Assembly (NCBI RefSeq): GCF_027111295.1
Contig: NZ_CP114287.1
Coordinates: 3,720,001 to 3,784,000 of the forward strand
Length of the DNA stretch: 64,000 nucleotides
Source: Flavobacterium gelatinilyticum
GTDB lineage: Bacteria > Bacteroidota > Bacteroidia > Flavobacteriales > Flavobacteriaceae
Direction of reading: 5' to 3'
Positions 3,103-39,879 of the stretch are shown here, piece by piece. Under the pieces are notes generated by a model, which made no database searches, was not told the DNA's origin, and was given only the letters and a program-made list of their open reading frames with translations. Position 1 is the first letter of the stretch, and each line of letters opens with the position of its first letter. The position numbers and the translations under genes were made by a program.

Positions 3103-3777
3103 TCAATCCAATTTACAATTATACCCCAATTGTAAATAAAACGGAATTAAAGGTGCTGTTTTAAAATCTTCGGTTATCACTTTTCCGGCTCTTAAAATCA
3201 AATCACTTTTGCGAAATGAATAACCGCCCTGAATACCGAAGTTAAAATTTCCTCCTGTTGTGGGTTCGTACCAGCCGTTTCTGACTTCAGGAAAAACCTC
3301 TTTATAAATACGGGTATGTTCAAAATGCGTTACGATTGCTTTGTCAAAACCAAATTCACCTGCCAAAAACCATTTCGGTTTATAATAGCCGATGGTTGTC
3401 GAAGCATCGGCACCAAAATTTTGTAAAGTCACGAGCGGATTTCCATAACGTCTGTAAATTCCATGAATCGCTGCGTTAAAACGAAAATTATCGATTTTAT
3501 AAACATTAATTTGTCCACCGATTTTAGTTTTAAAATCATCAAAAATAACTTCGCCTGATGCAAACGAAATCGAACTTTCCAGAACAATCGGTATTTTGGA
3601 ATTTAAATGATAACCGTAACTCAGACCATAAACAAAACTGTAGTCCCAGCCCGCATTTATATTTAAGATATGTTTTTCTTCTTTTTTTAGATTTTCCCAG
3701 TTTAAAGTTTGTGCCTGCGAATGGTGAGAGGTAAACAGAGAAAGAAGAAATGTGATTACCAGTAATATTGCTTTCAT
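3103..3777 (-). CDS. Secreted outer-membrane beta-barrel-like protein, unknown function
   Basis: The 224-residue product has a signal peptide (residues 1-22, cut after SQAQ). The rest alternates polar and hydrophobic residues with many Gly and Tyr, as in small outer-membrane barrels, and ends LQLGYNCKLD. I do not recognise a named family. It follows the alpha/beta hydrolase gene by 7 bases on the same strand, so the two are probably co-transcribed. Confidence 0.6.
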   Translation of the reverse strand: MKAILLVITFLLSLFTSHHSQAQTLNWENLKKEEKHILNINAGWDYSFVYGLSYGYHLNSKIPIVLESSISFASGEVIFDDFKTKIGGQINVYKIDNFRFNAAIHGIYRRYGNPLVTLQNFGADASTTIGYYKPKWFLAGEFGFDKAIVTHFEHTRIYKEVFPEVRNGWYEPTTGGNFNFGIQGGYSFRKSDLILRAGKVITEDFKTAPLIPFYLQLGYNCKLD

Positions 3778-3784
3778 ATCCGGA

Positions 3785-4774: not shown

Positions 4775-4927
4775 TGCATAGTTTTTAAAAGTTTATGCAA
4801 AGATGTTGTTCAGATGTATATGGGTCGCCCCAACTTGTAAGGTGGTTCTTTTTTTTAGAGATGCTAAGTTACTAAGGGACTCAGGTGCTAAGTTTTTTTC
4901 TTGTTGAAAATTGCGAGATTAAAAAAA

Positions 4928-27120: not shown

Positions 27121-27167
27121 AGAGCCAGTTTTATAATCAAAAAACATTCGATTATAAAATTGGCTCT
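27121..27167 (+). terminator. Long hairpin terminator before the NAD island
   Basis: AGAGCCAGTTTTATAATC (27121-27138) pairs with GATTATAAAATTGGCTCT (27150-27167) with one G-T wobble. It separates the lipoprotein gene from nrtR. Confidence 0.75.
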
Positions 27168-27201
27168 CATTATTTATATTTGTTAAACAGGATTATGAAT
27201 T

Positions 27202-27894
27202 ATGGAAAAATTACAAAATATTAGAATAGCCGTTGATGCGATTGTTTTTGGTTATAAAAACAACGGATTGTATGTATTATTGATTGAACAAAAGTTTGGT
27301 TCTGCCGATAAATACTGGGCATTGCCGGGCGGTTTGGTGCAGAATGATGAATCATTGAGTGATGCCGTTATCCGCGAACTGCACGAAGAAACCAATGTAC
27401 AGCTTAATTTCATGGAACAATTATACACTTTTGGAGATGATATTTTCAGGGATTCCAGAAACCGTGTAATTTCTGTTGCTTATTATGCTTTGGTTGACGC
27501 TTCCAATTTAGAAATTAGAGCCGATACAGATGCCGAAAGAGTACAATGGTTTAAAATTGATGAAATTCCGTCTTTGGCATTCGATCATAATTTGATTCTT
27601 AAAAAAGCCATTACGCGATTGAAAGCAAAACTGACGTATGAACCAATTGGTTTCGATTTGCTTCCGGATGAGTTTCTATTTTCGGATCTCGAAAACTTGT
27701 ATTGCACCATTCTGGAAAAAGAAATCGACCGAAGAAACTTTAGGAAAAAAATACTGAGTTACGGTATTTTAGAACAAACAGAAAAAATTGCACCGGTAAA
27801 AAACGGAAGACCAGCAAAGCTTTTTAGGTTTAATAAGCTGAAATATAATTCATTAGTGAAAGAAGGCTTTCACTTCGAAATAAAGTTTGCGTAA
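27202..27894 (+). CDS. nrtR: Nudix-domain transcriptional regulator of NAD metabolism (NrtR family)
   Basis: The 230-residue protein has a Nudix domain (about 8-140) and a C-terminal winged helix (about 150-230, RRNFRKKILSYGILEQTEK, GRPAKLFRFN). NrtR proteins bind ADP-ribose or NAD-derived ligands and repress NAD salvage genes. The Nudix box is nearly complete: G44, E50, R58, E59, L60, E62, E63, with Asn65 in place of the final Gly. It could therefore still hydrolyse ADP-ribose, unlike many degenerate NrtRs. A -7-like TATATTTG lies at 27175-27182. It is followed by two palindromes and the prs-like gene, so it likely controls the whole island. Confidence 0.88.
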   Translation: MEKLQNIRIAVDAIVFGYKNNGLYVLLIEQKFGSADKYWALPGGLVQNDESLSDAVIRELHEETNVQLNFMEQLYTFGDDIFRDSRNRVISVAYYALVDASNLEIRADTDAERVQWFKIDEIPSLAFDHNLILKKAITRLKAKLTYEPIGFDLLPDEFLFSDLENLYCTILEKEIDRRNFRKKILSYGILEQTEKIAPVKNGRPAKLFRFNKLKYNSLVKEGFHFEIKFA

Positions 27895-27906
27895 TTTTTA
27901 CACAAA
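27886..27906. promoter_or_regulatory. Upstream palindrome, candidate NrtR operator 1
   Basis: TTTGCGTAA (27886-27894) and TTACACAAA (27898-27906) form a 21-bp palindrome with one mismatched pair. The left arm includes the nrtR stop codon. It shares the TTTGCGTAA half-site with the second palindrome. Confidence 0.5.
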
Positions 27907-27911
27907 ATAAA

Positions 27912-27941
27912 TTGTTTATTTAAAAATAAATTCTACATTTG
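27912..27941 (+). promoter_or_regulatory. Promoter of the NAD/ADP-ribose island
   Basis: TTG at 27912-27914 and TACATTTG at 27934-27941 are 19 bases apart, an exact Bacteroidota promoter. The last four bases of the -7 box belong to the adjacent palindrome, so a bound repressor would block RNA polymerase. Confidence 0.75.
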
Positions 27942-27958
27942 CGTATAATTAACGCAAA
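27938..27958. promoter_or_regulatory. Promoter-overlapping palindrome, candidate NrtR operator 2
   Basis: TTTGCGT (27938-27944) and ACGCAAA (27952-27958) are perfect 7-bp inverted arms around ATAATTA. The site covers the -7 box and the expected transcription start of the prs-like gene. Confidence 0.6.
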
Positions 27959-27968
27959 CCTAAATGCT

Positions 27969-28796
27969 ATGATACTAAATCTCGACCCAAAATTCGCTCC
28001 TTTTCAAAATCAGGACGAAATTAAATTTCAAAGTTTTACTTTTTCAGGAGGAGAACCGCACATCAAAATTGTTCCGGATTTTGATACCAACAGAAAAGTA
28101 ACGATTACACACAGATTAAACTCATTCAACGATTTAGGTTTGTTGTGTATTACAGTCGATGCTTTACGCAGAATGGACGTTAAAATTATAGATCTTTTTA
28201 TTCCGTATTTTCCGGCTGCGAGACAAGATCGTGTTATGATTCCGGGCGAACCGTTGTCTGTAAAAGTATATGCCGATATTATAAATGCGATGCAGTTGAA
28301 CAAAGTATTTGTTTTTGATGCACATTCTGAAGTAACTCCGGCTTTATTGAACAATTGTACCGTAATTCCGAACTATAGTTTCATTAAAGATGTTTTAAAC
28401 AGAATAGGCGAAAATGTAAAACTGATTTCTCCGGATGGCGGTGCTTTAAAGAAAATCTACAAAGTATCTGAGTTTTTAGGAGGTGTTGAGGTTGTAGAAT
28501 GCAGTAAAAGCCGAGATGTAAAAACCGGAAAATTATCTGGTTTTAAAGTTTACAATGACGATTTGCAGGGAATAGATTGTTTAATAGTAGATGATATCTG
28601 CGACGGAGGAGGAACTTTCGTAGGATTAGCAGAAGAATTAAAAAAGAAAAATGCCGGAAAATTATACTTAGCTGTAAGCCACGGTATTTTTAATAAAGGA
28701 TTTGAGGTTTTAGATTGTTTCGACAAAATATTTACCACGAATTCTTTTAAAGACTTTGATGACGAAAACGTCGAAGTCATAAAATTTGAATTATGA
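27969..28796 (+). CDS. Ribose-phosphate pyrophosphokinase-like enzyme (Prs paralogue)
   Basis: From ATG 27969 (MILNLDPKFAPF) the protein is 275 residues, shorter than housekeeping Prs (about 310). Family features: LFIPYFPAARQDRVMIPGEP in two pieces (PYFPAARQDR; the catalytic flexible loop region), VFDAHSEVTPALL, SPDGGALKK, and the PRPP loop LIVDDICDGGGTFVGLA. It would transfer pyrophosphate from ATP to ribose 5-phosphate, giving PRPP for NadV. Phage NAD-reconstitution pairs use a Prs-like kinase acting on ADP-ribose, so that substrate is an alternative. It overlaps the next gene by four bases (ATGA). Confidence 0.9.
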   Translation: MILNLDPKFAPFQNQDEIKFQSFTFSGGEPHIKIVPDFDTNRKVTITHRLNSFNDLGLLCITVDALRRMDVKIIDLFIPYFPAARQDRVMIPGEPLSVKVYADIINAMQLNKVFVFDAHSEVTPALLNNCTVIPNYSFIKDVLNRIGENVKLISPDGGALKKIYKVSEFLGGVEVVECSKSRDVKTGKLSGFKVYNDDLQGIDCLIVDDICDGGGTFVGLAEELKKKNAGKLYLAVSHGIFNKGFEVLDCFDKIFTTNSFKDFDDENVEVIKFEL

Positions 28797-29611
28797 ATAA
28801 AAATAACAGAATAGAAATAGCAGATAAGACCTTAGAAATCATAAAAAATGGTTTTTATGAATACAAAGGAAACAAGATTACACTAGAAAAAGAACTCAAA
28901 GAATCTAAAGAAAATACATTTACAATTGCACCGGACGATTGGGACACAATTTTAAAAGCACCAATTGAAAATAAGTTTGAAACAGAAATTGTTGTAAAAA
29001 ATTGTTCGACAATTGAAGCAGTTGTTCAGGAGAAAAACGGAAAAATCTGTGTTTTGAACTTCGCTTCTGCAAAAAATCCCGGAGGCGGATTTTTAGGCGG
29101 CGCTTCGGCTCAGGAAGAAAGTCTGGCCAGATCTTCAAACCTTTATGAAACACAGATCAAAGATAAAACGATGTACGATTTTAACAAAAACCAATCTTCG
29201 TTTTTGTATTCAGATTACATGATTTATAGTCCGAATGTTTTGTTTTGGAATGATGATAACGGACATTATTTTGAAAAACCACTTATCGCAGATGTGATTA
29301 CGGCACCTGCACCCAACAAAGGCGCAATGCTGCAGCACAACAGAAAAGAAGAAATTGCCAAAGCAGACGAGATTTTAAAAGCAAGAATAGATAAAGTATT
29401 CGCAATTGCGCTAAAACAAAAAAGTGATACATTGATTTTGGGAGCCTGGGGCTGCGGTGTTTTTAGAAATGAACCCAAAGATGTGGCTCGTTTGTTCAAA
29501 AAAGTTATCGACGAAAAATATGCAGGCGCCTTTAAAAAAATAGTGTTTGCCATATTTAGCAATTCTGAAAAGAAATCGAATTTAAAAGATTTCGAAGACG
29601 TATTTCAATAA
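28793..29611 (+). CDS. PARG-like ADP-ribose glycohydrolase (TIGR02452/DUF2263 family)
   Basis: The 272-residue protein has the poly(ADP-ribose) glycohydrolase signature: NPGGGFLGGASAQEESLARS-type core with GGG at 97-99 and catalytic QEE at 107-109. The C-terminal part ends the macro-like fold with TLILGAWGCGVFRNEPKDVA. Bacterial members release ADP-ribose from modified macromolecules. It is translationally coupled to the prs-like gene. An antisense open frame over it is a shadow. Confidence 0.88.
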   Translation: MNKNNRIEIADKTLEIIKNGFYEYKGNKITLEKELKESKENTFTIAPDDWDTILKAPIENKFETEIVVKNCSTIEAVVQEKNGKICVLNFASAKNPGGGFLGGASAQEESLARSSNLYETQIKDKTMYDFNKNQSSFLYSDYMIYSPNVLFWNDDNGHYFEKPLIADVITAPAPNKGAMLQHNRKEEIAKADEILKARIDKVFAIALKQKSDTLILGAWGCGVFRNEPKDVARLFKKVIDEKYAGAFKKIVFAIFSNSEKKSNLKDFEDVFQ

Positions 29612-29865
29612 GTTGAAATGTTTCAGGTTTCAGGTTTCAAGTTACTGTAATGAACCGGAAACAGAGAAAACCTGAAAAAAAAACTATTAACCGTTTCAAG
29701 TTTAAAACCAAATTTCAAGTTCAGTAAACAACCTGAAACTTGAAACAAGAAAAACCTGAAACAAAAATCTATTAACTGTTTCAAGTTTAAAGTTCCAGGT
29801 TTCAAGTTTGTGCACAACCTGAAACGTGAAACAAAGAAAAACGTGAAACAAAATAAACCAAAATT
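29612..29865. repeat. Two ~84-bp tandem units of iterated words inside the operon
   Basis: Units start at 29669 and 29753 with AACCTGAAA and run about 84 bases each, followed by a partial third. Within each, GTTTCAAGTTTAAA and CAGGTTTCAAGTT words face inverted AACCTGAAACTTGAAAC copies, so each unit folds back on itself. No gene is present. Confidence 0.65.
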
Positions 29866-30201
29866 ATGAGCGACGATTTAAAACCAAGATTTATTGAATC
29901 TTTAAAAAGAAACAATGATCAGATAAGAGAAGACAGAGCCAAAGTAATTGGTGAAGATTCTGAATTAATTTACAGAAGAAGAGTCGAAGACATCGAATTA
30001 AAAATCAAAAGACTCGAAAGAGAACAAGAAGGATTAATTGATATTAGTCCGCTGGATAAAAACAGTTTGACTTTTGCCGATTTTCAGCCGGAAGCTTTTG
30101 TTCAAAAAGACATGGAACTTTCGCTGACCATCAGAAATTTAAACATCCAGTTTGAGGTTACAAAAAAGAGATTTGAATATTTATTTGGTAAAAAATATTA
30201 A
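29866..30201 (+). CDS. Small coiled-coil protein paired with the vWA protein
   Basis: The 111-residue, charged, helical protein has a probable coiled coil at about 35-55 (RRRVEDIELKIKRLEREQEG). It has no signal peptide, membrane segment or recognisable domain. It begins the second block of the island and ends two bases before the vWA gene, so the two probably form one functional pair. Function unknown. Confidence 0.7.
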   Translation: MSDDLKPRFIESLKRNNDQIREDRAKVIGEDSELIYRRRVEDIELKIKRLEREQEGLIDISPLDKNSLTFADFQPEAFVQKDMELSLTIRNLNIQFEVTKKRFEYLFGKKY

Positions 30202-30203
30202 TC

Positions 30204-31073
30204 ATGGGAGGTACAAGATATGATTTCGGAGCTCGCGAAAGCAGAGCAAAAAAAGTAGGTTATGCCAGCAAATCAGCTGGTGAGATTTTTACACAGAATG
30301 CATTACGGATGGCACATGAATCTATGAATCCAAACGGAGTGCTTTTTAGAGAAGCAAGAGATTCAGATGTTCATCCAAACACCGTTCCGATTATTCTAGG
30401 ACTGGACGTTACAGGAAGTATGGGGCATATTCCACACGAATTGATAAAAGACGGACTTCCAAAATTAATGGGCGGCATTATTCAGGGAGGCGTTCCGGAT
30501 CCGGCACTTTTATTCTTAGGAATCGGCGATCACGAATGCGACAGATATCCGCTTCAGGTAGGCCAGTTTGAATCTGGCGACGAAGAACTGGATATGTGGT
30601 TAACAAGAACCTACATCGAAGGCGGAGGCGGAGGAAACGCAGGCGAAAGTTATCTTTTAGCGTGGTATTTTGCAGCTTTTCATACCAGAACCGATGCATT
30701 TGAAAAAAGAGGACAAAAAGGATTGTTGTTTACAGTGGGCGATGAACCAGGTTTAAAAACACTTCCAGCTTCGGCAATTAAAGAAATTATGGGTCAGGGA
30801 CAACAGACTTATACGCATCTTGAATTATTAGCAGAAGCGCAAAAAAGATACGATGTATATCATATCAGTGTATTGCATTCAGGACAAGCAATCAATGCTG
30901 ATGTTGAGTGGAAAGAATTACTAGGACAAAACTGTTTGTCTATCGAAGATCACAGAGAAATTCCAAACGTAATTAAAAAGATCATCTGCGATAAACATAA
31001 AGGTTCTGGTTTAGGGACAATACCAGTTTCTGGTGCAAGTGACAGCAGTTTGGATAATATAGAAATGCTTTAA
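30204..31073 (+). CDS. von Willebrand factor A-like protein with variant MIDAS
   Basis: The 289-residue cytoplasmic protein has a vWA-like fold. The MIDAS site reads GLDVTGSMG (near residue 70), DxTxS in place of the usual DxSxS; a Gly-rich loop, YIEGGGGGNAGESY, follows near 137-150. vWA domains bind metal and partner proteins. No signal or membrane segment is seen. Its place among ADP-ribose enzymes suggests a scaffold or sensor, but this is inference. It lies two bases after the coiled-coil gene. Confidence 0.75.
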   Translation: MGGTRYDFGARESRAKKVGYASKSAGEIFTQNALRMAHESMNPNGVLFREARDSDVHPNTVPIILGLDVTGSMGHIPHELIKDGLPKLMGGIIQGGVPDPALLFLGIGDHECDRYPLQVGQFESGDEELDMWLTRTYIEGGGGGNAGESYLLAWYFAAFHTRTDAFEKRGQKGLLFTVGDEPGLKTLPASAIKEIMGQGQQTYTHLELLAEAQKRYDVYHISVLHSGQAINADVEWKELLGQNCLSIEDHREIPNVIKKIICDKHKGSGLGTIPVSGASDSSLDNIEML

Positions 31074-31079
31074 TTTTTA

Positions 31080-31215
31080 AACACATAGAGACATAGATTT
31101 TTCTTTTGATTCTGAAAGAATAAAGAAAGAAACCAGTTTCTAACACATAGTTATGTGAATTGAAACAAGTGAAACGCCTTTTTCAAGATTCCAATAAGCT
31201 ATGATTCTATGTGTT
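31080..31215. repeat. Iterated-word inverted repeat (ACACATAG words)
   Basis: AACACATAGA (31080-31089) and TCTATGTGTT (31206-31215) are perfect inverted ends. ACATAG occurs again at 31091-31098 and AACACATAG at 31142-31150. It fills the gap between the vWA gene and the PurA paralogue. Confidence 0.6.
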
Positions 31216-31243
31216 AAAAATAATTGACCAACAATTTAGTAAA

Positions 31244-32326
31244 ATGAAAACAGCGAAAATAGTTATAGGTTTAGGATTTGGTGATGAAGGAAAAGGCATA
31301 ACAACAGATTTTCTGGCAAAACAAAACCCTGAATCTATAGTTATTCGCTTTTCGGGAGGACAACAAGCAGCGCACACCGTTATGATCGGCGATAGAAAAC
31401 ACGTGCATTCAAGTTTTGCAAGCGGTGCACTTCGTGGACTTCCGTCGTATTACAGCGAGCATTGTACGATTCATCCGCTTTTTCTTTATAACGAAAGAGA
31501 AGAATTAAAAGAAAAAGAAGCTAATCTGGATTTGTATATTCATCCTTTAGCAAAAGTTACCACTCCTTTTGATGTCTGGCACAACAGAGGAAATGTGCGA
31601 AACATTGAAAACGGAACCTGCGGAAAAGGCATTGGTTCAACTATGAAAAGAAATGAAGGTCCGTATAAATTGTTTGCCATCGATTTGATTGCGCCCCGCG
31701 AAATGCTTTTAGAAAAACTAAACCAAATCGCCTATTATTATGGTTTTTTAAACGAAAACGGAATCGACGAAGAAGTAAATCTATATCTGGAAGCAATCGA
31801 CAAACTAAAATGGAATATTGTCGATTATACGTTTCTTTTAAAATACGAAAATCTCATTTTTGAAGGCAGTCAGGGAATTCTGCTCGATATGGATCACGGC
31901 GTTTTCCCGAATGTTACGTATGCTAATACCACTTCAAAAAATGCGATTGAAATTTGTAATAAACTAAAGATTGAAGATGTAGCCGTTTATTACGTAACCC
32001 GAAGTTATTCAACCCGCCACGGACACGGCTGGATGGCAAACGAAGGAGAAATTAAATTAAAAAACAACGAAGAAGAAACCTGTGTTTTTAACGAATATCA
32101 AAAACATTTACGTTTTGGAAGTCTGAATTACGAGCTTCTTAATTATGCTCTAAAACTCGATGCAGCCTACAGCCCAATGGCAAAACGAAATTTGGTTGTA
32201 ACTTGTATGGATCAGCTGGAGCAGGATTATGAGTTCGAAAGTCTCACAACAGAATTCAATGAAATCTACGGATCATTTTCACCCGATTCAAAAGATTTCA
32301 AAATCATTACTTCTTTGTTTCAATAA
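31244..32326 (+). CDS. Short, divergent adenylosuccinate synthetase (PurA) paralogue
   Basis: From ATG 31244 the product is 360 residues, against about 425-430 for PurA. The catalytic N-terminus is kept: GFGDEGKG (11-18, with Asp14 and Lys17) and AAHT (His44), plus NGTCGKGIG, FEGSQG (206-211), DMDHG and YSTRHGHG. The aspartate-binding loop of PurA (GATTGRRRR-type) is replaced by HLRFGSLNYELL (288-299). The guanine motif TKLD reads TCMD, and the C-terminal SxGPxR part is absent. It may therefore ligate a different amine or use a different nucleotide. It precedes NADAR by eight bases. Confidence 0.85.
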   Translation: MKTAKIVIGLGFGDEGKGITTDFLAKQNPESIVIRFSGGQQAAHTVMIGDRKHVHSSFASGALRGLPSYYSEHCTIHPLFLYNEREELKEKEANLDLYIHPLAKVTTPFDVWHNRGNVRNIENGTCGKGIGSTMKRNEGPYKLFAIDLIAPREMLLEKLNQIAYYYGFLNENGIDEEVNLYLEAIDKLKWNIVDYTFLLKYENLIFEGSQGILLDMDHGVFPNVTYANTTSKNAIEICNKLKIEDVAVYYVTRSYSTRHGHGWMANEGEIKLKNNEEETCVFNEYQKHLRFGSLNYELLNYALKLDAAYSPMAKRNLVVTCMDQLEQDYEFESLTTEFNEIYGSFSPDSKDFKIITSLFQ

Positions 32327-32334
32327 ACAGAAAA

Positions 32335-32862
32335 ATGAAATACAATATAGATACCATAGCTACGGAAAGTAAATTTTTATTTTTCTGGGGACATCAGCCT
32401 GACAAAAGCGGTAAAATTACCAAAACCTGTTTCAGCCAATGGTGGTTAAGTTCTTTTAAAGTTGATAAAGTAACTTATAAAACCGCAGAACATTGGATGA
32501 TGGCGAAGAAAGCAGAATTATTCAACGATCAGGAAATTTTAGAAAAAATCCTCGAAGCCGATTCTCCTGCAGAAGCAAAGAAATTGGGTAGAGAAGTTAA
32601 AAATTACAACGATAAAATCTGGTTAGAAAACCGATACGAAATTGTAAAACAAGGAAACTTTCACAAATTCAGTCAAAATGCTGATTTGAAAACCTTCTTA
32701 CTAAACACGAAAGAACGAGTTATTGTCGAAGCAAGTCCCGTAGATCCAATCTGGGGAATTGGAATGGCGGGCGATCATAAAGATGTTTTAAACCCGGAAG
32801 CCTGGAAAGGATTAAATCTTTTAGGTTTTGCGTTGATGGAAGTTCGGGATGAATTAAGATAA
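32335..32862 (+). CDS. NADAR (YbiA-like) family protein
   Basis: The 175-residue protein has the NADAR motifs: FLFFWGHQP, YKTAEHWMMAKKAELF, DPIWGIGMAGD, and WKGLNLLGFALMEVRDEL. NADAR proteins are N-glycosidases on ADP-ribose-linked substrates; some reverse guanine ADP-ribosylation by DarT1, and YbiA acts on a riboflavin intermediate. The full domain is present and complete. It is directly coupled to the next gene (the stop touches its start codon). Confidence 0.9.
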   Translation: MKYNIDTIATESKFLFFWGHQPDKSGKITKTCFSQWWLSSFKVDKVTYKTAEHWMMAKKAELFNDQEILEKILEADSPAEAKKLGREVKNYNDKIWLENRYEIVKQGNFHKFSQNADLKTFLLNTKERVIVEASPVDPIWGIGMAGDHKDVLNPEAWKGLNLLGFALMEVRDELR

Positions 32863-33282
32863 ATGATTATGGAAACAACAAGATTATACCGTCCGGTTGG
32901 ATTGAAAGAAATGGAATTAATTGCAGATTCCGGTTACAAAGCATTTCCGCCAAGATTAGAATGGCAGCCTATTTTTTATCCGGTAACGAATCAGCAGTAT
33001 GCTGACCAGATTGCTTTTGAATGGAATACCGTTGATGAATTTTCCGGATTTATTGGAATAGTGACGACTTTTGAAGTGAAAACAGATTTTCTTGAAAAAT
33101 ATGAAATTCAAAATGTTGGCGATAAAAACCATAATGAGCTTTGGATTCCTTCAGAAGATTTGTCTGATTTTAATTCTAATATAGTCAACGGAATTGAGAT
33201 TATAAATGTTCACTTTACAGACCATTCTTTGAGAAGTGAAAATAAAGAACTTAATGACAAATTAGATAGTTTTAGAAAATGA
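32863..33282 (+). CDS. 'ADP-ribosylation/crystallin J1'-type small protein, possible ADP-ribosyltransferase
   Basis: The 139-residue protein (or 137 from ATG 32869) begins [17 protein letters not shown] and contains [26 protein letters not shown] and [15 protein letters not shown] recall this family annotated as 'ADP-ribosylation/crystallin J1'. The small size, an early RPVG and a late E-hydrophobic-P-x-E-D-L pattern resemble compact ADP-ribosyltransferase folds, so it could be the writer that the erasers in this island oppose. That role is inference. It starts immediately at the NADAR stop and overlaps the next gene by four bases. Confidence 0.65.
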
Positions 33283-33785
33283 TTTTAGAATTACTAAAAG
33301 CGGATATTACAGAAATTCAGGTTGATGCAATTGTAAATGCAGCGAATACTTCTTTGCTTGGAGGCGGTGGTGTAGATGGAGCGATTCATCGTAAAGGAGG
33401 AAAAGGAATTTTGGACGAATGCATTCAAATCCGCAACAAACAAGGCGGCTGTAAAACAGGAGAAGCTGTTATTACAACAGGCGGATATCTGCCTTCTAAA
33501 TATGTTATTCATACAGTTGGTCCGGTTTGGAATGGTGATAAAAATGAAAAATCGAAACTTCTGGCAGATTGTTATCAAAACAGTTTAAAACTTGCTGTCG
33601 AAAACGGAATAAAAACAATTGCTTTTCCAAATATCAGTACGGGAATTTATCATTTTCCCAAAGACAAAGCAGCAGAGATTGCGGTAAAAGCAGTAAAGGA
33701 GTTTGAAAGAATTTCAGAAATAGAAAAGGTCATATTTGTCTGCTTTGATGATGAAAATTATCAGATTTATAAAAGTATTTTGTAA
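33279..33785 (+). CDS. MacroD/YmdB-type macrodomain ADP-ribose hydrolase
   Basis: The 168-residue protein is one macrodomain. It has the ADP-ribose-binding motifs [20 protein letters not shown] (residues about 16-35) and [12 protein letters not shown]. MacroD/YmdB enzymes remove mono-ADP-ribose from acidic residues and deacetylate O-acetyl-ADP-ribose. The family length is normal. Start overlaps the previous stop (ATGA). Confidence 0.92.
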
Positions 33786-33824
33786 ATATTCCGGAGGAAC
33801 GTTTGAATTAAAACAAATAAAAAA

Positions 33825-34295
33825 ATGAAAGACATTCAATATATAAAAGGCGATGCAACATCTCCTCAAACATTACAAAACAAAATAATAGTTCACGTTT
33901 GCAATGACATTGGCGGATGGGGAAAAGGATTTGTAATGGCAATTTCAAAAAGATGGAAAGAACCAGAAAAGCAATATCGCGAATGGTTCAAATCTAAAAA
34001 TGATTTCGAATTAGGAAAAGTACAGTTTGTTCAGGTTGAAGAAGATTTATGGGTGGCGAATTTAATCGGGCAGCATAAAATCAATAAAGATGAAAACGGC
34101 GGCGCTCCAATTCGTTACAATGCAATTGAAGAAGGACTAAAAGTAGTTTCTGATTTTGCAAAAACAAACAATGCATCCGTTCACATGCCCAGAATTGGAT
34201 GCGGATTAGCCGGCGGAAAATGGGAAATGATCGAGCCGATTATTCTTAAAACCCTGTCTGATCAGGATATAGAAGTTGTGGTTTACGATTTTTAA
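33825..34295 (+). CDS. Second macrodomain, Poa1/TARG1-like
   Basis: The 156-residue macrodomain differs from its neighbour: GDATSPQ, IVHVCNDIGGWGKGFVMAIS, and MPRIGCGLAGGKWEMIEP. This resembles yeast Poa1 (ADP-ribose 1''-phosphate phosphatase) and TARG1/ALC1-type macrodomains. In yeast Poa1 acts on the by-product of Tpt1, and KptA (bacterial Tpt1) is encoded two genes on, so a shared pathway is plausible. The exact activity cannot be read from sequence. Confidence 0.87.
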   Translation: MKDIQYIKGDATSPQTLQNKIIVHVCNDIGGWGKGFVMAISKRWKEPEKQYREWFKSKNDFELGKVQFVQVEEDLWVANLIGQHKINKDENGGAPIRYNAIEEGLKVVSDFAKTNNASVHMPRIGCGLAGGKWEMIEPIILKTLSDQDIEVVVYDF

Positions 34296-34348
34296 ACCAC
34301 AAAGAAACAATTAAAGTAAACACAATCAAGTTGTTGTGTTCTAATAAA

Positions 34349-34984
34349 ATGAAAATAGAATTAAAAAAATATGATGAGCAATTACAAGAATGGCCTCAAA
34401 CGGGTTATCATATAATGGCTCAGTATGACGATGAAAAAATAATAGTATATCAGTCATACCGCAAAGAAATAGGAGAGTTTGCCGTAAAGAACCAGTTTTT
34501 TGGAGGTGCTTTCAGCCTTGACCGAATGACGTGGATAAAACCCAATTTTCTGTGGATGATGTACAGAAATGGCTGGGGAACAAAAGAAGGTCAGGAAGTT
34601 GTTCTGGCAATCCATCTCAAAAGAGAAGCATTCGAAAAATACCTTCAAAATGCCGTTTATTCCTCTTACGCTGCAGAACTGGAAGTGAGTTACGAAGAAT
34701 GGCAGTCGCAGGTAAAATCGTCTTCAGTTCGATTACAATGGGATCCGGATCACGATCCTTACGGAGGAAAACTGGACAGAAGAGCCATTCAGATTGGTTT
34801 ACGCGATGAATTTACAAGATCGTATGCAAAAGAAGATATTCTGTTAATCGAAGATATTTCGGATTTTGTAAAAGAACAATATGAATTTGTTCAAAAGAAA
34901 GAATTGGACAATCTGCTGATTCCGGCGGAGAAGCCTTTTCTTTTTAAAGATGAAAAATTGAATAAAAAATTAAGACTTACATAG
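34349..34984 (+). CDS. DUF4291 protein
   Basis: From ATG 34349 (MKIELKKYDEQ) the product is 211 residues. It shows the DUF4291 pattern: IIVYQSYRKEIGEFAVKNQ, MTWIKPNFLWMMYRNGWG, and LQWDPDHDPYG with IQIGLRDE. The family has no assigned activity. Its repeated association with NAD/ADP-ribose genes, and the conserved Arg, Trp and Asp/His positions, suggest an enzyme. It lies five bases before kptA. A TTG start at 34331 would add six residues. Confidence 0.85.
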   Translation: MKIELKKYDEQLQEWPQTGYHIMAQYDDEKIIVYQSYRKEIGEFAVKNQFFGGAFSLDRMTWIKPNFLWMMYRNGWGTKEGQEVVLAIHLKREAFEKYLQNAVYSSYAAELEVSYEEWQSQVKSSSVRLQWDPDHDPYGGKLDRRAIQIGLRDEFTRSYAKEDILLIEDISDFVKEQYEFVQKKELDNLLIPAEKPFLFKDEKLNKKLRLT

Positions 34985-34989
34985 AAAAG

Positions 34990-35538
34990 ATGAATGAAAA
35001 AACAGCAAAAAGCGTCAGCAAATTTTTGAGTCTGGTGCTTAGACATTCGCCTGAAACTATCGGATTAAAATTAGACGAAAACGGATGGGCAGATGTTGCC
35101 GAATTAATTATAAAATGCAATAAAAAAGGAAGCCAGAATCAAATGACGGCCGAACTTTTGGATTACGTTGTAGAAAATAACGATAAAAAACGTTTTGCTT
35201 ATAATGAAGATAAAAGCAAAATTCGTGCAAGTCAGGGACATTCCATTTCAGTTGAACTGAATCTGGAAGAAACTGAACCTTTAGAATATTTGTACCACGG
35301 AACGGTTGGGAAATTTATGGAAAACATTCGTAAAGAAGGTTTGAAAAAAATGAGCCGTCAGCATGTGCATTTGAGTAAAGACAAAGAAACAGCCGCAAAA
35401 GTAGGAAGCAGAAGAGGAGTGCCTCAAATTTTAACCGTTAGAAGCGGCGCTATGCACAGAGACGGGTATAAATTTTATTTATCCGAAAACAACGTCTGGC
35501 TGACAGATGAGGTTCCGGCGAAATACATTGAATTTTAA
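34990..35538 (+). CDS. kptA: RNA 2'-phosphotransferase (Tpt1/KptA family)
   Basis: KptA transfers an internal RNA 2'-phosphate to NAD, releasing nicotinamide and ADP-ribose 1'',2''-cyclic phosphate. The 182-residue protein shows LRHSPETIGLKLDENGW (R18-H19), IRASQGHS (R79), YHGT (102-105) and HVHLSKD, the Tpt1 signatures. Some KptAs can also ADP-ribosylate nucleic acid ends. The product needs a phosphodiesterase and an ADP-ribose-phosphatase to be recycled, and candidates for both are neighbours. Confidence 0.94.
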   Translation: MNEKTAKSVSKFLSLVLRHSPETIGLKLDENGWADVAELIIKCNKKGSQNQMTAELLDYVVENNDKKRFAYNEDKSKIRASQGHSISVELNLEETEPLEYLYHGTVGKFMENIRKEGLKKMSRQHVHLSKDKETAAKVGSRRGVPQILTVRSGAMHRDGYKFYLSENNVWLTDEVPAKYIEF

Positions 35539-35539
35539 A

Positions 35540-36271
35540 ATGAAAAGAACATTAGTTTTTGGAGATATTCACGGCGGATTAAAAGCTTTGATTCAGTTAC
35601 TTACCCGAGTTACTGTATCCGCAAATGACCGGCTGATTTTTTTAGGCGATTATGTAGACGGCTGGAGCGAATCGGCACAGGTAATTGAGTTTCTTATCGC
35701 GTTATCCCAAAAGCACGAATGCATTTTCATAAAAGGAAATCACGATGCGTGGTGTCAGGAATGGTTAGAAAAAGATGTCATAAACGACATCTGGTTTTTG
35801 CACGGCGGAAAATCGACTATAGAAAGTTATCAGAATATGGAACTTTCGACAAAAGAGAAACATCTGGATTTTTTTAATCAAATGAAAGATTATTTTGTAG
35901 ATGAAAACAATAATCTTTTCATTCACGCCGGATTTTCATCAATGCACGGACCGGAAAAAGAGCATTATCAAACCAATTTTTCGTGGGACAGAACGTTATG
36001 GGAAATGGCGCTGACAATGGATAAGCGAATTCAAAAAGATTCTCTTTTGTATCCAAAAAGATTATTGCTTTATAATGAAGTTTATATCGGGCATACGCCA
36101 ACGCTTCATTACGATGTAGAAATCCCAATGCAGGGCTGTAATATCTGGAATATAGATACCGGAGCGGCTTTTTATGGAAAATTAACCTGTATTGAGATTG
36201 AAACAAAAGAATTCTGGCAGAGCGATGTAGTGCAGACATTGTATCCTAACGAAAATGGAAGAAATAAATGA
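35540..36271 (+). CDS. Calcineurin-like metallophosphoesterase (PPP type)
   Basis: From ATG 35540 the protein is 243 residues. Metal-binding motifs are in order: GDIHG (8-12), GDYVDGWSE, KGNHDAW, and IGHTPT near the C-terminus. The set belongs to the PPP-type phosphatase superfamily (as in ApaH, Pnkp and bacterial PrpA/B). It starts one base after kptA and overlaps the DraG-like gene by four bases, so a role in opening ADP-ribose cyclic phosphate is a fair hypothesis. The upstream MRFRRNTLNF extension overlaps kptA and is not favoured. Confidence 0.88.
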   Translation: MKRTLVFGDIHGGLKALIQLLTRVTVSANDRLIFLGDYVDGWSESAQVIEFLIALSQKHECIFIKGNHDAWCQEWLEKDVINDIWFLHGGKSTIESYQNMELSTKEKHLDFFNQMKDYFVDENNNLFIHAGFSSMHGPEKEHYQTNFSWDRTLWEMALTMDKRIQKDSLLYPKRLLLYNEVYIGHTPTLHYDVEIPMQGCNIWNIDTGAAFYGKLTCIEIETKEFWQSDVVQTLYPNENGRNK

Positions 36272-37206
36272 TGAAGAATAAAATAGAATCAGCTTTGTTT
36301 GGTCTTGCAATTGGTGATGCGTTAGGAGTTCCTGTTGAATTTGAGTCGAGAACTTATTTAAAGCAAAATCCGGTTACTGATATGTTTGGTTTTGGAACAC
36401 ATCATCAGCCAGCAGGAACGTGGAGCGACGATAGTTCACTTGCTTTTTGTCTGGCAGAAAGTTTATGTTCAGGATATGATTTAAATGACATCGCAAGGAA
36501 TTTTGTGAAATGGTACAGCGGTAATTTATGGACACCACACGGAAGAGTTTTTGATATTGGAATCGCAACCCAACATGCTGTTCTTAATATTGCAAAAGGA
36601 CATCAGCCTGATTTATGCGGCGGTTTTTCTGAAAGTGATAACGGAAATGGTTCTTTAATGCGTATTCTGCCTTTACTTTTTTATCTTCAAAATGAAAAAG
36701 ATATTGAAGTGATTTACCAAAAAGTAAAAGAAGTTTCCTCAATAACGCACGCACATTTCAGATCGGTATTTGCCTGTTTTATTTACATGGTATATTGTTT
36801 GGAAATTTTAAAAGATAAGGATAAATTCGAAGCTTATAAAAACATGCAGTTTGTTCTTTCTGAATTTCTGCAAGGTAAAAGTTTTAATCCTCGAGAGATT
36901 GGATTGTTCGATAAGATTCTAAAAAATGATATTTCAAAATATGAAGAAACCGATATTCAATCTTCGGGTTATGTGCTTCATAGTTTAGAAGCGAGTTTTT
37001 GGTGTTTTTTAAATTCTGATTCTTACGAAGAAACCGTTTTAAAAGCAGTTAACTTAGGAGAAGATACAGATACAACCGGAGCAATTGCAGGAGGACTGGC
37101 AGGAATGTATTACGGAATTGATGCTATTCCGAAAAAATGGATTGACAAGTTAGTGAGAACAAATGATATAAAAGATTTGGCAGAACGCCTTTCAAATAGA
37201 ATATAA
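36268..37206 (+). CDS. ADP-ribosylglycohydrolase (DraG/ARH family)
   Basis: The 312-residue all-helical hydrolase removes ADP-ribose from Arg or other acceptors. The two-Mg site is visible in TWSDDSSLAF (SDD at 53-55) and in NLGEDTDTTGAIAGGLAG (about 268-285). DNGNGSLMRILPL is also typical. No activity-defining residue appears lost. It overlaps the metallophosphoesterase by four bases and is followed after ten bases by nadV. Confidence 0.93.
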   Translation: MMKNKIESALFGLAIGDALGVPVEFESRTYLKQNPVTDMFGFGTHHQPAGTWSDDSSLAFCLAESLCSGYDLNDIARNFVKWYSGNLWTPHGRVFDIGIATQHAVLNIAKGHQPDLCGGFSESDNGNGSLMRILPLLFYLQNEKDIEVIYQKVKEVSSITHAHFRSVFACFIYMVYCLEILKDKDKFEAYKNMQFVLSEFLQGKSFNPREIGLFDKILKNDISKYEETDIQSSGYVLHSLEASFWCFLNSDSYEETVLKAVNLGEDTDTTGAIAGGLAGMYYGIDAIPKKWIDKLVRTNDIKDLAERLSNRI

Positions 37207-37216
37207 AAACCTAAAT

Positions 37217-38686
37217 ATGAACCCACTATTATTAACCGATGGTTACAAAGTTGACCACAGAAGACAATATCCGGACGGAACGACTATCGTATATTCTAAC
37301 TGGACACCAAGAAAATCGAGAATTGAAACAGTTGATGAGGTAATCTTTTTTGGGCTGCAGTATTTCATCAAAAAATATATCATTCACGACTTTGAAGAGG
37401 AATTCTTCAAAAAGCCGAAGGAAGAAGTAATAAAAAAATATTCCCGCAGAATCAACAATTATTTAGGTGAAAACCTAGTTGGAACAAAACATATCGAAGA
37501 TTTACACGATTTAGGATATATTCCGATGGTGTTTAAAGCTTTGCCAGAAGGAGCGAGCGTTCCGTTGCGAGTTCCAATGTTTACGATGTACAATACGATT
37601 CCGGAATTTTTCTGGCTGACAAATTATTTTGAAACCTTACTTTCTGCGGTAATCTGGCTCCCATGTAACTCAGCAACCATTGCAAAAGAATATAGAAAAG
37701 TGCTGGATAAGTTCGCAACAGAAACTTCTTCTGTTCCGGAATTCGTAGACTGGCAGGCACACGATTTCTCAATGAGAGGAATGGGCGGAATTGAAGCTTC
37801 TTTAACTTCTGCAGCCGGACATTTATTAAGCTTTACAGGATCAGATACCATTCCGGCAATTGATTTCTTAGAAGAATATTACAATGCCAATTCAGATCAG
37901 GAATTGGTGGCAGGTTCCGTAGCAGCAACAGAACATTCTGTTATGTGCATGGGAACTACAGAAGGCGAGTACGAGACTTTCAAAAGATTAATTACAGAAG
38001 TTTATCCAAAAGGAATCGTTTCTATAGTTTCGGATACTTGGGATTTATGGAAAGTTCTAACGGATTATCTTCCAAGATTAAAAGAAGAAATCGTTTCAAG
38101 AGAAGGTAAAGTGGTAATTCGTCCTGACAGTGGTGACCCTGTAGATATTATTTGCGGAAATCCAAACGGAAAAACAGAGCAGGAGAAAAAAGGTGTTATC
38201 GAATTACTTTGGGATGTTTTCGGTGGAACTACAAATGCTAAAGGGTTTAAAGAATTGGTTCCGCAAATCGGAGCTATTTACGGAGATAGTATTACTGTAG
38301 CAAGAGCAACTCAAATCTGCGAAAGATTAAAAGAAAAAGGATTTGCTTCTACAAACGTTGTTTTAGGAATCGGATCTTTCACATATCAATACAACACCAG
38401 AGATACTTTCGGTTTTGCGATGAAAGCAACATACGGAGAAGTAAACGGAGAGGGAAGAGCCATCTTCAAAGATCCTATTACAGATGACGGAACTAAAAAA
38501 TCGGCTAAAGGATTGATGAAAATTGATTTAATCAACGGGAAGTATCATTTGACAGATAATGTTTCTTGGGAAGAAGAAAAACAAGGCGAATTGAAGGAAG
38601 TTTTCAGAGATGGAAAACTTTTAGTTGATCAATCGCTGAGTGAAATTAGAACAAGAGTAAAAAGCGACGTAAATATCGAAGCTTAA
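37217..38686 (+). CDS. nadV: Nicotinamide phosphoribosyltransferase (NAMPT/NadV)
   Basis: NadV makes NMN from nicotinamide and PRPP. The 489-residue protein is close in length to human NAMPT (491). Active-site equivalents are present: LLTDGYKVDHRRQYP at the start, R187 in MRGMG, D210 in TGSDT, the catalytic His240 in ATEHS, and R302/D304 in IRPDSGDP. It recycles nicotinamide released by KptA, ADP-ribosyltransferases or NADases. Phage ADP-ribose-pyrophosphate-dependent enzymes (Namat) resemble this fold, so the donor could differ. A strong terminator follows. Confidence 0.93.
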   Translation: MNPLLLTDGYKVDHRRQYPDGTTIVYSNWTPRKSRIETVDEVIFFGLQYFIKKYIIHDFEEEFFKKPKEEVIKKYSRRINNYLGENLVGTKHIEDLHDLGYIPMVFKALPEGASVPLRVPMFTMYNTIPEFFWLTNYFETLLSAVIWLPCNSATIAKEYRKVLDKFATETSSVPEFVDWQAHDFSMRGMGGIEASLTSAAGHLLSFTGSDTIPAIDFLEEYYNANSDQELVAGSVAATEHSVMCMGTTEGEYETFKRLITEVYPKGIVSIVSDTWDLWKVLTDYLPRLKEEIVSREGKVVIRPDSGDPVDIICGNPNGKTEQEKKGVIELLWDVFGGTTNAKGFKELVPQIGAIYGDSITVARATQICERLKEKGFASTNVVLGIGSFTYQYNTRDTFGFAMKATYGEVNGEGRAIFKDPITDDGTKKSAKGLMKIDLINGKYHLTDNVSWEEEKQGELKEVFRDGKLLVDQSLSEIRTRVKSDVNIEA

Positions 38687-38840: not shown

Positions 38841-38858
38841 ATTGTGTATAATTAGGAT

Positions 38859-38897
38859 GAATTGCCTCCAGTTTTAACTGGAGGCAATTCAATTTTT
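38859..38897. terminator. Bidirectional hairpin between nadV and nadD
   Basis: GAATTGCCTCCAGTT (38859-38873) and AACTGGAGGCAATTC (38876-38890) pair perfectly. The T-run is on the plus side; for nadD on the minus strand it lies just after the stop codon. Confidence 0.75.
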
Positions 38898-39487: not shown

Positions 39488-39523
39488 GTAACTAGTGATT
39501 GGTGACTAGTGATTGGTTATTAG
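39488..39523. repeat. Left 36-bp inverted repeat of the four-helix-bundle element
   Basis: GTAACTAGTGATTGGTGACT... runs 36 bases and is the inverted match of 39894-39929 with about seven differences. It is made of two iterations of an ACTAGTGATTGGT word. It contains the stop codon of the enclosed gene. Confidence 0.65.
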
Positions 39524-39879
39524 TTTTTTAGTGTTTTTGAAAAAGCGTTAATCATTTTTGATTCTTCTTCAATTTGATTTAAAATTTCTTTATAAAGAGC
39601 TTGATTGTTTATAAAGCCAAGATCATTGGCAATTAGTAATTGTGTCTCGATTTCGAACAATGAACCTCGCGATATGTTTAGAAAATGACTAAAAGATTTA
39701 TCGGTATTTCGTCCATAGCCTTCTGCTATATTCGATGGGATCGAAACAGAAGCTCTTTTTAACTGACTCGTTAAAGCATATAATTCTTCAGGAGGAAATG
39801 ATTTTACTAACTGATAAACTAAAGAAACTATTTTAACTCCTTTTTGCCAAACCAATAAATCTTTATAAGACTTTATCAT
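39520..39879 (-). CDS. Four-helix-bundle protein (S23 / 23S rRNA IVP family)
   Basis: The 119-residue protein begins MIKSYKDLLVWQKGVKIVSL and contains LTSQLKRASVSIPSNIAEGYGR and FLNISRGSLFEIETQLLIA, the pattern of the S23/IVP family (PF05635), which also includes the Avd protein of diversity-generating retroelements. Family members are basic helical bundles that bind nucleic acid; cellular function is unsettled. Here it sits alone between nadD and gmk and is bracketed by 36-bp inverted repeats, one carrying its stop codon and the other the gmk stop codon. No reverse transcriptase is near. Confidence 0.88.
   Translation of the reverse strand: MIKSYKDLLVWQKGVKIVSLVYQLVKSFPPEELYALTSQLKRASVSIPSNIAEGYGRNTDKSFSHFLNISRGSLFEIETQLLIANDLGFINNQALYKEILNQIEEESKMINAFSKTLKN

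Follow-up and report, generated by a model that had tools for sequence, protein, structure and literature searches.

A chromosomal operon of Flavobacterium gelatinilyticum with predicted ADP-ribose erasers between candidate NARP1 genes

Introduction

Why would a bacterium gather in one operon several enzymes that remove ADP-ribose from different acceptors, together with genes for rebuilding NAD? The question is raised by the genome of Flavobacterium gelatinilyticum, in which inspection of open reading frames and family searches identified 15 genes, all on the + strand, at positions 27202-38686 of the window (the whole stretch of 64,000 nucleotides that was analysed). All the genes that an earlier note on this DNA had named were found there, each with family support, and the junctions that it had described were exact to the base: overlaps of 4 bases occur at 28793, 33279 and 36268, and the NADAR gene abuts the next gene at 32862/32863. 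Six genes absent from that note encode a 111-aa protein, a VWA-like protein, a PurA-like protein, a 139-aa protein, a DUF4291 protein and a calcineurin-like phosphatase.

NARP1 is the pathway formed by the enzymes Adps and Namat, by which NAD+ is made directly from ADP-ribose plus nicotinamide, and it is used by phages to rebuild NAD. According to a 2026 paper (PMC12774641), NARP1 of bacteria has enzymatic activity and in E. coli gives relief from an NADase system; the same paper calls for more work on its physiological role.

Results

The island opens with NrtR (27202..27894, + strand), a repressor combining a Nudix sensor and a winged helix (PF00293 and PF21906), whose top NCBIfam match, to the ADPR-responsive repressor NtrR, has 131 bits, under the cut-off of 400. 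Upstream of it, an inverted repeat with 18-base arms and one mismatch (27121..27167, no strand assigned) may be an operator or a terminator. The next gene (27969..28796, +), previously described as a Prs-like kinase, matches phrog_619 with 266 bits and TIGR01251 with 126 bits. Its product is 41-43% identical to those of the Namat-adjacent genes of phages Bas62 and ctKR88 and 32-34% identical to those in Bas63 and a mycobacteriophage, and the stretch DDICDGG is present in the candidate and in all four phage counterparts (5/5). A separate ordinary Prs, encoded elsewhere in the genome, is 28% identical to the candidate and has DDMIDTGG. By sequence, this gene is best read as the Adps of NARP1.

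The last gene of the island (37217..38686, +), formerly taken for NadV, encodes a NAPRTase/NadV-like protein that scored 625 bits against the crystallised phage Namat 9W5X/9W5W and 474 against 9ke8, compared with 241 against human Nampt 6E68 and 209 against 7yqo; its bit scores place it nearer to Namat proteins that have been characterised than to Nampt. It also carries GSFTYQYNTRD, a form of the adenine-clamp SCH motif GSx(T/S)x(Q/N)x(N/V)TRD with an aromatic residue at positions 3 and 7. The clamp motif was found in 116 of 118 Namat-like proteins, the exceptions being both Nampt loci that had been included for control, and the phage Namat proteins that were read (4/4) have GSYTYQ(F/Y/H)NTRD or GSYTYQYMTRD. 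NadV of [Haemophilus] ducreyi pNAD1 belongs to the same superfamily and is 49% identical to the window protein, but its GAQTYQRNTRD lacks both adenine-stacking aromatics and no Adps match was found in the fetched stretch. The gene, which lies on the same strand and in the same island as the Adps candidate, is best read as the Namat of NARP1. Downstream of it, a terminator-like hairpin (38858..38891, +) of 15 pairs, 7 of them G-C, has the longest stem of 8 hits, a number equal to the shuffle mean of 7.8.

The two genes are present as the earlier note had reported, with Adps and Namat as a better fit than its names, and the NAD rebuilding arm that it proposed is supported, although homology and motif point to NARP1 instead of ordinary nicotinamide salvage. 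Salvage under NrtR, accompanied by unrelated passengers, would agree with the NCBIfam naming of the last gene as nicotinate phosphoribosyltransferase (597 bits, above cut-off) and with the NrtR-NadV pairs found on opening two further loci of the phylum (L176, L177). This reading is made highly improbable by the clamp motif and Namat-like similarity of the last gene, by the Adps candidate standing beside a separate genomic Prs and by the non-random distribution of the passengers described below.

Five predicted ADP-ribose erasers lie between the candidate NARP1 genes. A bacterial-type PARG (28793..29611, +; PF10021; TIGR02452, 264 bits) is the sole PF10021 match in the genome and scored 168 bits against solved poly-ADP-ribose glycohydrolases (5zd*) and 145 against 3sig. 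NADAR (32335..32862, +; PF08719, 192 bits) scored 78 bits against the solved NADAR 8bau and 50 against YbiA 2b3w; it also passes, with 180 bits, the cut-off of TIGR02464, a riboflavin-intermediate N-glycosidase family with a different substrate. A MacroD-type macrodomain (33279..33785, +; PF01661, 166 bits) matches NCBIfam models of O-acetyl-ADP-ribose deacetylase and of ADP-ribose binding. The second macrodomain (33825..34295, +), divergent with 18.4 bits in PF01661 for a cut-off of 22, was assigned to the BT1257/5E3B type, distantly DarG-like, from its matches to the solved protein 2fg1 (208 bits), the macrodomain protein 5e3b (188 bits) and DarG models (47 and 53 bits). The fifth is an ADP-ribosylglycohydrolase of the ARH/DraG superfamily (36268..37206, +; PF03747, 259 bits), with 298 bits to 8za7 (Lmo0067), 150 to 6dre and, in the Tri1 model, 190 bits, under the cut-off of 490. 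Up to six ADP-ribose-removing enzymes had been claimed for the island. These five were borne out; the sixth, KptA/Tpt1 (34990..35538, +; PF01885, 173 bits; NF002014, 259 bits, passing the cut-off of 239), is an RNA 2'-phosphotransferase of the ART superfamily, outside the ADP-ribose-removing families. The wider claim, that many erasers for different acceptors stand together with an NAD rebuilding arm, is supported.

To place the island among its relatives, 81 loci were compared, namely the window and the best 80 of 207 relatives; these were picked by Adps similarity, so that Adps is present by construction, and the 80 come from Flavobacterium except for three from Flavobacteriaceae bacterium. 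NrtR was found in 81/81 of these loci, NADAR in 77/81 and a complete Namat in 76/81 (the window and 75 others), the remaining five being incomplete at Namat. NrtR-Adps and Namat bracket variable cargo in the 75 related loci and in the window. At least one ADP-ribose eraser family was present in 75 of the 76 complete loci of this sample, the window having five. Across the 81 loci, 73 cargo sets were distinguished, with ORFs called by a greedy script that may miss small genes. MacroD and ARH proteins clustered together and were separated by length, those of more than 400 aa being counted as both; macrodomain and ARH are fused as one protein in 10 loci, with both domains found by tblastn in 10/10 and checked by Pfam in L036. 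The set of erasers carried changes fast between strains, as if tracking changing attackers, in a turnover tree built by a quick search from two conserved proteins. The island site is syntenic on the chromosome within the genus; in other genera the same frame has non-matching flanks and much of the repertoire in other orders. Up to 19 ORFs of at least 80 aa separate Adps and Namat in loci of this kind.

These genes travel together, which contradicts the possibility, raised in the earlier note, that they are random neighbours. In the Namat-bearing genomes other than that of the window, out of 61 genus genomes surveyed, 30 of the 36 NADAR, ARH, KptA and Macro copies lie within 12 kb of Namat. At the genome level, the size and relatedness of the genomes confound co-occurrence. 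In 32 bounded loci, NAD/ADP-ribose-linked cargo families account for 126 of the 188 ORFs inside and for 1 of the 318 flanking ORFs, a contrast favoured by the fact that cargo families were partly defined from such loci. The additional loci share at least six cases with the 80-locus set. The association is not universal: two genomes without Namat carry such genes, G734 with three ARH hits and a KptA, and G698 with NADAR, ARH and KptA. Five of the 32 bounded loci carry no cargo, nor do the Adps-Namat pairs that were opened in Bacillus, Paenibacillus and an Arthrobacter plasmid; NARP1 without erasers thus exists, and erasers are not required for it. Namat without an Adps match in the fetched stretch was seen in L113, L116, L118, L121, L125, L126 and L129, some of which are truncated where the contig or the stretch ends.

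The absence of an obvious writer, stated in the earlier note, is doubtful. Directly behind NADAR, the 139-aa protein (32863..33282, +) has a predicted ADP-ribosyltransferase (ART) fold and is a candidate writer, in which R10, Y39/Y46 and E92 are invariant, forming the R-Y-E motif reported for RhsP2. The DUF4291 protein (34349..34984, +) matches an ART-like model weakly and has no clear triad. The layout recalls the YbiA-YarT toxin-antitoxin pair, in which likewise the gene directly behind NADAR encodes a small protein with an ART fold that resembles Rhs toxins (PMC11125620); YarT, however, is myxobacterial and H-Y-E, and section 2.2 of that paper does not describe NARP1 with it. The locus could then be a writer-eraser module, similar to toxin-antitoxin pairs, in which ADP-ribosylation is carried out by transferases of the cell itself, namely the 139-aa protein and perhaps DUF4291, with NADAR and the remaining hydrolases acting as antitoxins and NARP1 making good the NAD that is spent. 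We hold this reading to be possible but tentative: besides the differing motif and the weak case for DUF4291, the 139-aa protein occurs in just 17 of the 81 loci compared with 77 for NADAR, and L075 carries it without NADAR. A search of the entire genome for PF14487, the family of DarT in DarTG, gave no match.

KptA opens the way to another alternative, NAD-dependent RNA repair, in which it would remove 2'-phosphates left by RNA cleavage, a macrodomain, NADAR and the phosphatase would clear ADP-ribose by-products, and Adps and Namat would restore NAD. The calcineurin-like phosphatase (35540..36271, +; PF00149, 59 bits; phrog_246, 154 bits) has an inferred start in an ORF that opens at 35507. 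Across the 81 loci, KptA is found in 68, the phosphatase in 54 and the two directly adjacent in 29, which favours repair. Nevertheless, 13 of the 76 complete loci of this sample lack KptA, and such a pathway would have no use for PARG and ARH. RNA ligase, 2H and cREC, the companions of KptA in RNA-repair operons, were matched as domains in none of the 15 genes by Pfam or NCBIfam and were not found among their well-covered profile matches or among the cargo representatives scanned; the sole RNA-ligase-labelled match is a weak phrog_8238 hit of the phosphatase which, like its weak match to a PNKP model, falls within its phosphatase domain. RNA repair is considered unlikely.

Three further genes form a trio that is all-or-none, present together in 41 of the 81 loci and wholly absent in 40: the 111-aa protein (29866..30201, +), with no family above cut-off; the VWA-like protein (30204..31073, +), named by eye from a MIDAS-like DVTGS stretch, with 131 bits to phrog_2971 (unknown function) and no match in Pfam or NCBIfam; and the PurA-like protein with a short C-terminus (31244..32326, +; PF00709, 150 bits; start set at ATG), 28% identical to the genome's own PurA and retaining GDEGKG. 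This trio, as well as the 2OG oxygenase and the M48 peptidase plus helicase seen as cargo, does not simply fit a scheme of erasing ADP-ribose and refunding NAD.

An action against phages, in stress or in repair, as the earlier note had inferred for the island, is conjectural. PADLOC recognised no complete named system in it; NADAR scores 159 bits with the candidate model PDC-M42C and the second macrodomain 53 bits with DarG, and NrtR and the phosphatase match candidate models weakly. Phages often carry NARP1-like genes (1,489 phage records matched the Adps query and 1,938 the Namat query, housekeeping-type relatives included), and Pseudomonas phage PPSC2 has a macro domain gene immediately behind Namat, as could be expected if the island had been domesticated from a phage counter-defence and served to block abortive infection in which the cell depletes its own NAD. 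The syntenic chromosomal site, the control by NrtR and the lack of recognised phage genes around the island speak against this; moreover, four other phage loci that were opened have no annotated eraser, and none of five neighbour genes scanned in three of them is one. Such an origin is judged quite improbable.

Discussion

A 2012 NADAR paper by de Souza and Aravind is said to have described NADAR/KptA/Macro/ARH neighbourhoods, possibly this one included. As in the bacterial NARP1 already published, both enzymes and the Namat clamp motif are found by sequence in one operon; in the pertinent parts of that report Adps lies upstream of Namat and erasers are not mentioned (PMC12774641), whereas in the window erasers stand between the two, under NrtR. 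The closest parallel in phages is RyDEP, a glycosidase encoded within a mycobacteriophage NARP1 operon that, in the portions of a preprint devoted to it, releases ADP-ribose and feeds it into NARP1 (PMC13232231). RyDEP opens cyclic ADP-ribose signals, whereas the families in the window act on macromolecules and are encoded on a bacterial chromosome. The ARG-centred host systems (Iyer 2022; PMC9503650) share with the window an ARH (PF03747), a Nudix-HTH or WYL regulator (here NrtR), a calcineurin phosphatase (PF00149), Macro/NADAR extras and variable modules. They also have a peptide-binding chaperone-like gene such as VWA; the window has a gene that is VWA-like by eye and gave no Pfam match. 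Section 3.8 of that paper mentions neither Adps/Namat nor NAD rebuilding, both predicted here, and it sets out from systems to which no ART or sirtuin is linked, while the window couples KptA and a predicted ART-fold protein that may be an active transferase. No title or abstract retrieved from the open-access literature describes NARP1 genes with ADP-ribose erasers lying between them.

Gene identities, the sequence-based assignment of Adps and Namat, the co-localisation and the turnover of the cargo are observed, and we propose from them that the locus is probably a chromosomal NARP1 operon turned into a dock for ADP-ribose erasers, whose freed ADP-ribose is returned to NAD+. The trigger would be ADP-ribosyltransferases that load ADP-ribose on DNA, RNA and protein, or NADases that cleave NAD+, whether they come from phages, from rival bacteria or, as ART-fold proteins, from the cell itself. 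Free ADP-ribose would relieve the repression by NrtR, an induction that we infer. The five hydrolases would release more of it from acceptors predicted from the activities of related enzymes: RNA 2'-OH and phosphate ends for PARG, guanine for NADAR, thymine or uracil for the 5E3B-type macrodomain, protein and phosphate ends for MacroD and protein side chains for ARH; their substrates in this strain may differ. Adps would pyrophosphorylate ADP-ribose to ADPR-PP and Namat would join nicotinamide to it, yielding NAD+ in two steps that bypass NMN. NARP1 consumes the product of the erasers, free ADP-ribose, and the coupling is therefore tighter than the earlier note had proposed.

The locus offers a concrete and testable answer on the role of bacterial NARP1, which sits here with enzymes predicted to make its substrate. 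In its broadest form, the proposal is of a dedicated bacterial erase-and-refund pathway, in which a rapidly exchanged eraser panel works with a chromosomal NARP1 controlled by a repressor that senses ADP-ribose. Bacterial NARP1 would have this as its native role, and the locus would give broad immunity to toxins that ADP-ribosylate or that cleave NAD and might be the source of the phage NARP1; we regard this broad form as evenly poised. It would join two separate fields, the reversal of macromolecule ADP-ribosylation and immunity by NAD depletion, would provide a candidate writer as well as a collection of erasers shuffled by nature, and would move the question into Flavobacterium species that are amenable to growth and manipulation.

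Gene content and frame of the island

The window is part of a single 5.83-Mb contig, and the gene content of its island is certain: 15 genes, all on the + strand, span 27202-38686 in the order NrtR, Prs-like, PARG, a 111-aa protein, VWA-like (named by eye), PurA-like, NADAR, a 139-aa protein, a MacroD-type macrodomain, a second macrodomain, DUF4291, KptA, a calcineurin-like phosphatase, an ADP-ribosylglycohydrolase (ARH) and a NadV-like enzyme. The coordinates and start/stop overlaps that the earlier note assigned to these genes proved exact. A terminator-like hairpin lies downstream (38858-38891), and hairpins of this kind are no more frequent around the island than in shuffles. The flanks hold ordinary chromosomal genes, DJ-1 and LysR (by Pfam) and NadD and guanylate kinase (named from translations). 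The nadD-like and guanylate-kinase-like genes stand either side of a gene for a 23S rRNA intervening-sequence (four-helix) protein (39520-39879), which some related loci have and others do not.

The last gene, which its NCBIfam model names nicotinate phosphoribosyltransferase, matched the solved structures 9W5X/9W5W at 625 bits, 9ke8 at 474, 6E68 at 241 and 7yqo at 209. The first pair are described as Namat structures from the SPbetaL1 phage, and 6E68 as human Nampt (PMC12774641). The window protein has the Namat clamp motif in the form GSFTYQYNTRD. Of the 118 Namat-like proteins of the collected loci, counted without de-duplication, 116 have the clamp motif; the exceptions come from L176 and L177, NrtR-NadV loci (34-35% identical) taken as Nampt controls. 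The NadV of pNAD1 carries GAQTYQRNTRD, where both aromatics are missing. This protein (L185:2459-3946) is 49% identical to the window Namat, yet without the adenine-stacking aromatics, and could be of use in probing the specificity rule.

The second gene shows 41-43% identity to Namat-adjoining genes of phages Bas62 and ctKR88 and 32-34% to those of Bas63 and a mycobacteriophage. It shares with these phage neighbours the stretch DDICDGG, whose counterpart in the genome's own Prs, 28% identical to it, is DDMIDTGG. Its assignment as Adps rests on homology and linkage, because its PDB matches (31 sequences) are all named ribose-phosphate pyrophosphokinases or relatives and, according to a 2026 paper (PMC12774641), no Adps structure has been solved. 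On these sequence grounds, the frame of the island is very probably NARP1, in which Adps converts ADP-ribose into ADPR-PP and Namat combines the latter with nicotinamide to give NAD+.

A constant frame with variable cargo

The window was compared with 80 loci, the best of 207 relatives by Adps similarity, in which Adps is present by construction and 85-95% identical to that of the window. NrtR was found in all 81 loci and a complete Namat in 76; 75 of these 76 carry at least one eraser family (PARG, NADAR, either macrodomain or ARH), the exception being L070, where a HAD-like gene and an IS200 transposase are found instead. The cargo is variable: NADAR occurs in 77 of the 81 loci, KptA in 68, the phosphatase in 54, ARH in 47, the trio of 111-aa, VWA-like and PurA-like genes in 41, MacroD in 37, a second ARH type in 28, the second macrodomain and DUF4291 in 23 each, a PF15891 protein in 22, PARG in 20, the 139-aa protein in 17, and a helicase-WGR plus M48 peptidase pair and a 2OG oxygenase in 11 each. 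With incomplete loci counted, the cargo falls into 73 distinct sets, and the majority gene order is kept in 1,656 of 1,759 ordered pairs. The trio is all-or-none, complete in 41 loci and wholly absent from 40; its PurA-like member, with a shortened C-terminus, is the constant companion of the VWA-like and 111-aa genes (31244-32326 and 29866-31073). A macrodomain-ARH fusion occurs in 10 of the 80 related loci (for example L036:14816-16276).

In the helicase-peptidase pair, a DUF4011/AAA helicase of 1,800 aa that ends in a WGR domain accompanies an M48-like peptidase (L064:4501-9906 and L014:3304-4506). The 11 loci that have the pair, of the 80, carry it after NrtR and before Adps, and the helicase matches the PADLOC candidate PDC-S37 at 659 bits. 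RES-domain (ART-superfamily) genes stand directly 3′ of NADAR (L053:14696-15676 and L055:13984-14820), the slot taken elsewhere by the 139-aa ART-fold gene.

Presence changes on an Adps+Namat tree of the 76 complete loci were set against shuffled presence. Observed and shuffled changes were about equal for NADAR (4 vs 3.9), KptA (12 vs 12.1), ARH (26 vs 24.8), DUF4291 (16 vs 16.9), the second macrodomain (17 vs 17.6) and the 139-aa gene (12 vs 13.1), so part of the cargo turns over fast at a fixed site. Some or clear tree signal was seen for the trio (12 vs 25.7), helicase (5 vs 10.4), second ARH type (14 vs 20.1), MacroD (19 vs 24.6), phosphatase (17 vs 21.3), PARG (12 vs 16.2), PF15891 protein (15 vs 17.8) and oxygenase (7 vs 8.6).

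Among 61 Flavobacterium genomes, 14 with Namat, 34 of 54 NADAR, ARH, KptA and Macro copies lie <12 kb from Namat (10/12, 10/19, 8/12 and 6/11, respectively). That the genes might be random neighbours, the outcome against which the earlier note had set its proposal, is contradicted: the island genes travel together, 30 of 36 such copies in Namat-bearing genomes other than the window's lying within this distance. NADAR is borne by 10 of 14 Namat genomes vs 2 of 47 without Namat, and the other families are likewise commoner in the former, comparisons confounded by the tendency of Namat genomes to be large. Against the association, one genome (G734) has three ARH hits and KptA, and another (G698) NADAR, ARH and KptA, both without Namat. 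There is a strong case that the association of the cargo with the NARP1 frame is non-random and partly fast-changing.

Distribution beyond the genus

A Namat match was found in 24 of 299 genomes of the family and in 30 of 395 of a phylum-wide draw, the latter splitting clearly into 20 matches of 79-100% identity and 10 of 36-38%. In other genera, NrtR-Adps-Namat occurs in flanks unlike those of the window, with 0-19 ORFs (at least 80 aa) separating Adps and Namat. Two loci of another genus (L172 and L175) show another arrangement of PARG, NADAR, ARH, MacroD, DUF4291, KptA, the phosphatase, a 139-aa relative and the trio, and also contain sirtuin-like, metallo-beta-lactamase-fold and DUF6939 genes. 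In the 32 loci that have Adps at one end and Namat at the other, 126 of the 188 ORFs between the two belong to NAD/ADP-ribose-linked cargo families, 47 to other recurrent cargo and 15 to neither, and 1 of 318 flanking ORFs matches cargo families, a contrast that denotes absence outside and not unbiased enrichment because the reference families partly derive from such loci. About half of the 32 come from the window's genus, six of the fetched loci are also in the 80-locus set, and the count takes in L124, whose Adps and Namat lie at least 14 kb apart with unrelated genes between; five are cargo-free. No Adps match was found within the fetched stretch of seven Namat loci (L113, L116, L118, L121, L125, L126 and L129), and L127 and L128 have an Adps-like gene (34-37%) downstream of Namat.

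Sirtuin or sirtuin-like genes are cargo in divergent loci (L113 and L169, Pfam-checked; L121, L170, L172 and L175, by similarity). In L111, a SIR2-TPR protein like antiphage SIR2 proteins (3275-5188) lies between Adps and a phosphatase-Namat pair; it may be an NADase placed within an operon that rebuilds NAD.

Plasmids of Bacillus, Paenibacillus and Arthrobacter, from outside the phylum, carry Adps adjoining Namat and no erasers, and a Jeotgalibacillus plasmid has an Adps-like gene downstream of Namat. Eraser-loaded NARP1 may be mainly a Bacteroidota matter, but the sample is small and Pseudomonas phage PPSC2 has a macro domain gene immediately 3′ of Namat (L184:5780-6277; the product labels of the record seem one gene off).

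Regulation

The best NCBIfam match of NrtR is an ADPR-responsive repressor, at a score far under the cut-off. In 18 of 22 divergent loci (from L109-L129 and L169-L175) the palindrome TGYGTW-N(3-6)-WACRCA lies near the NrtR start, often adjoined by a TAnnTTTG box, a Bacteroidota promoter element. The palindrome was found neither in the window, where TATATTTG stands at 27175-27182 and an inverted repeat spans 27121-27167, nor in loci with the window-type NrtR. Palindrome and NrtR subtype go together across the 80 loci and, because the former is absent where NrtR is window-type, the putative operator seems to have changed in step with the NrtR subtype.

Predicted roles of the cargo

The NADAR of the window also scores above the cut-off of a riboflavin-intermediate N-glycosidase model. 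For the ARH of the island the closest match is Lmo0067, followed by 6dre, and the second macrodomain matches 5E3B, which we take to be SCO6735, at 188 bits. SCO6735 is described as a thymine- and uracil-ADP-ribose hydrolase (PMC13036486). Bacterial PARG is reported to undo the RNA 2′-OH ADP-ribosylation made by RhsP2 and to act on phosphate ends, where relatives of MacroD and ARH also clear marks (PMC11833690), and NADAR to take ADP-ribose off guanine (PMC11543638; PMC11125620). By analogy, the window erasers probably share these activities: PARG on RNA 2′-OH and phosphate ends, NADAR on guanine, the second macrodomain on thymine and uracil, and MacroD and ARH on phosphate ends. KptA yields phosphorylated ADP-ribose and is not counted as an eraser. 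The PARG, NADAR, macrodomain and ARH reactions would each free ADP-ribose, the substrate of Adps. The macro-domain neighbour in phage PPSC2 and the fused erasers speak for such a coupling, and are roughly balanced by the Namat loci that gave no Adps match and by the match of NADAR to the riboflavin model. We lean, with some reserve, towards a function of the island in which the erasers would free ADP-ribose and NARP1 would turn it back into NAD+.
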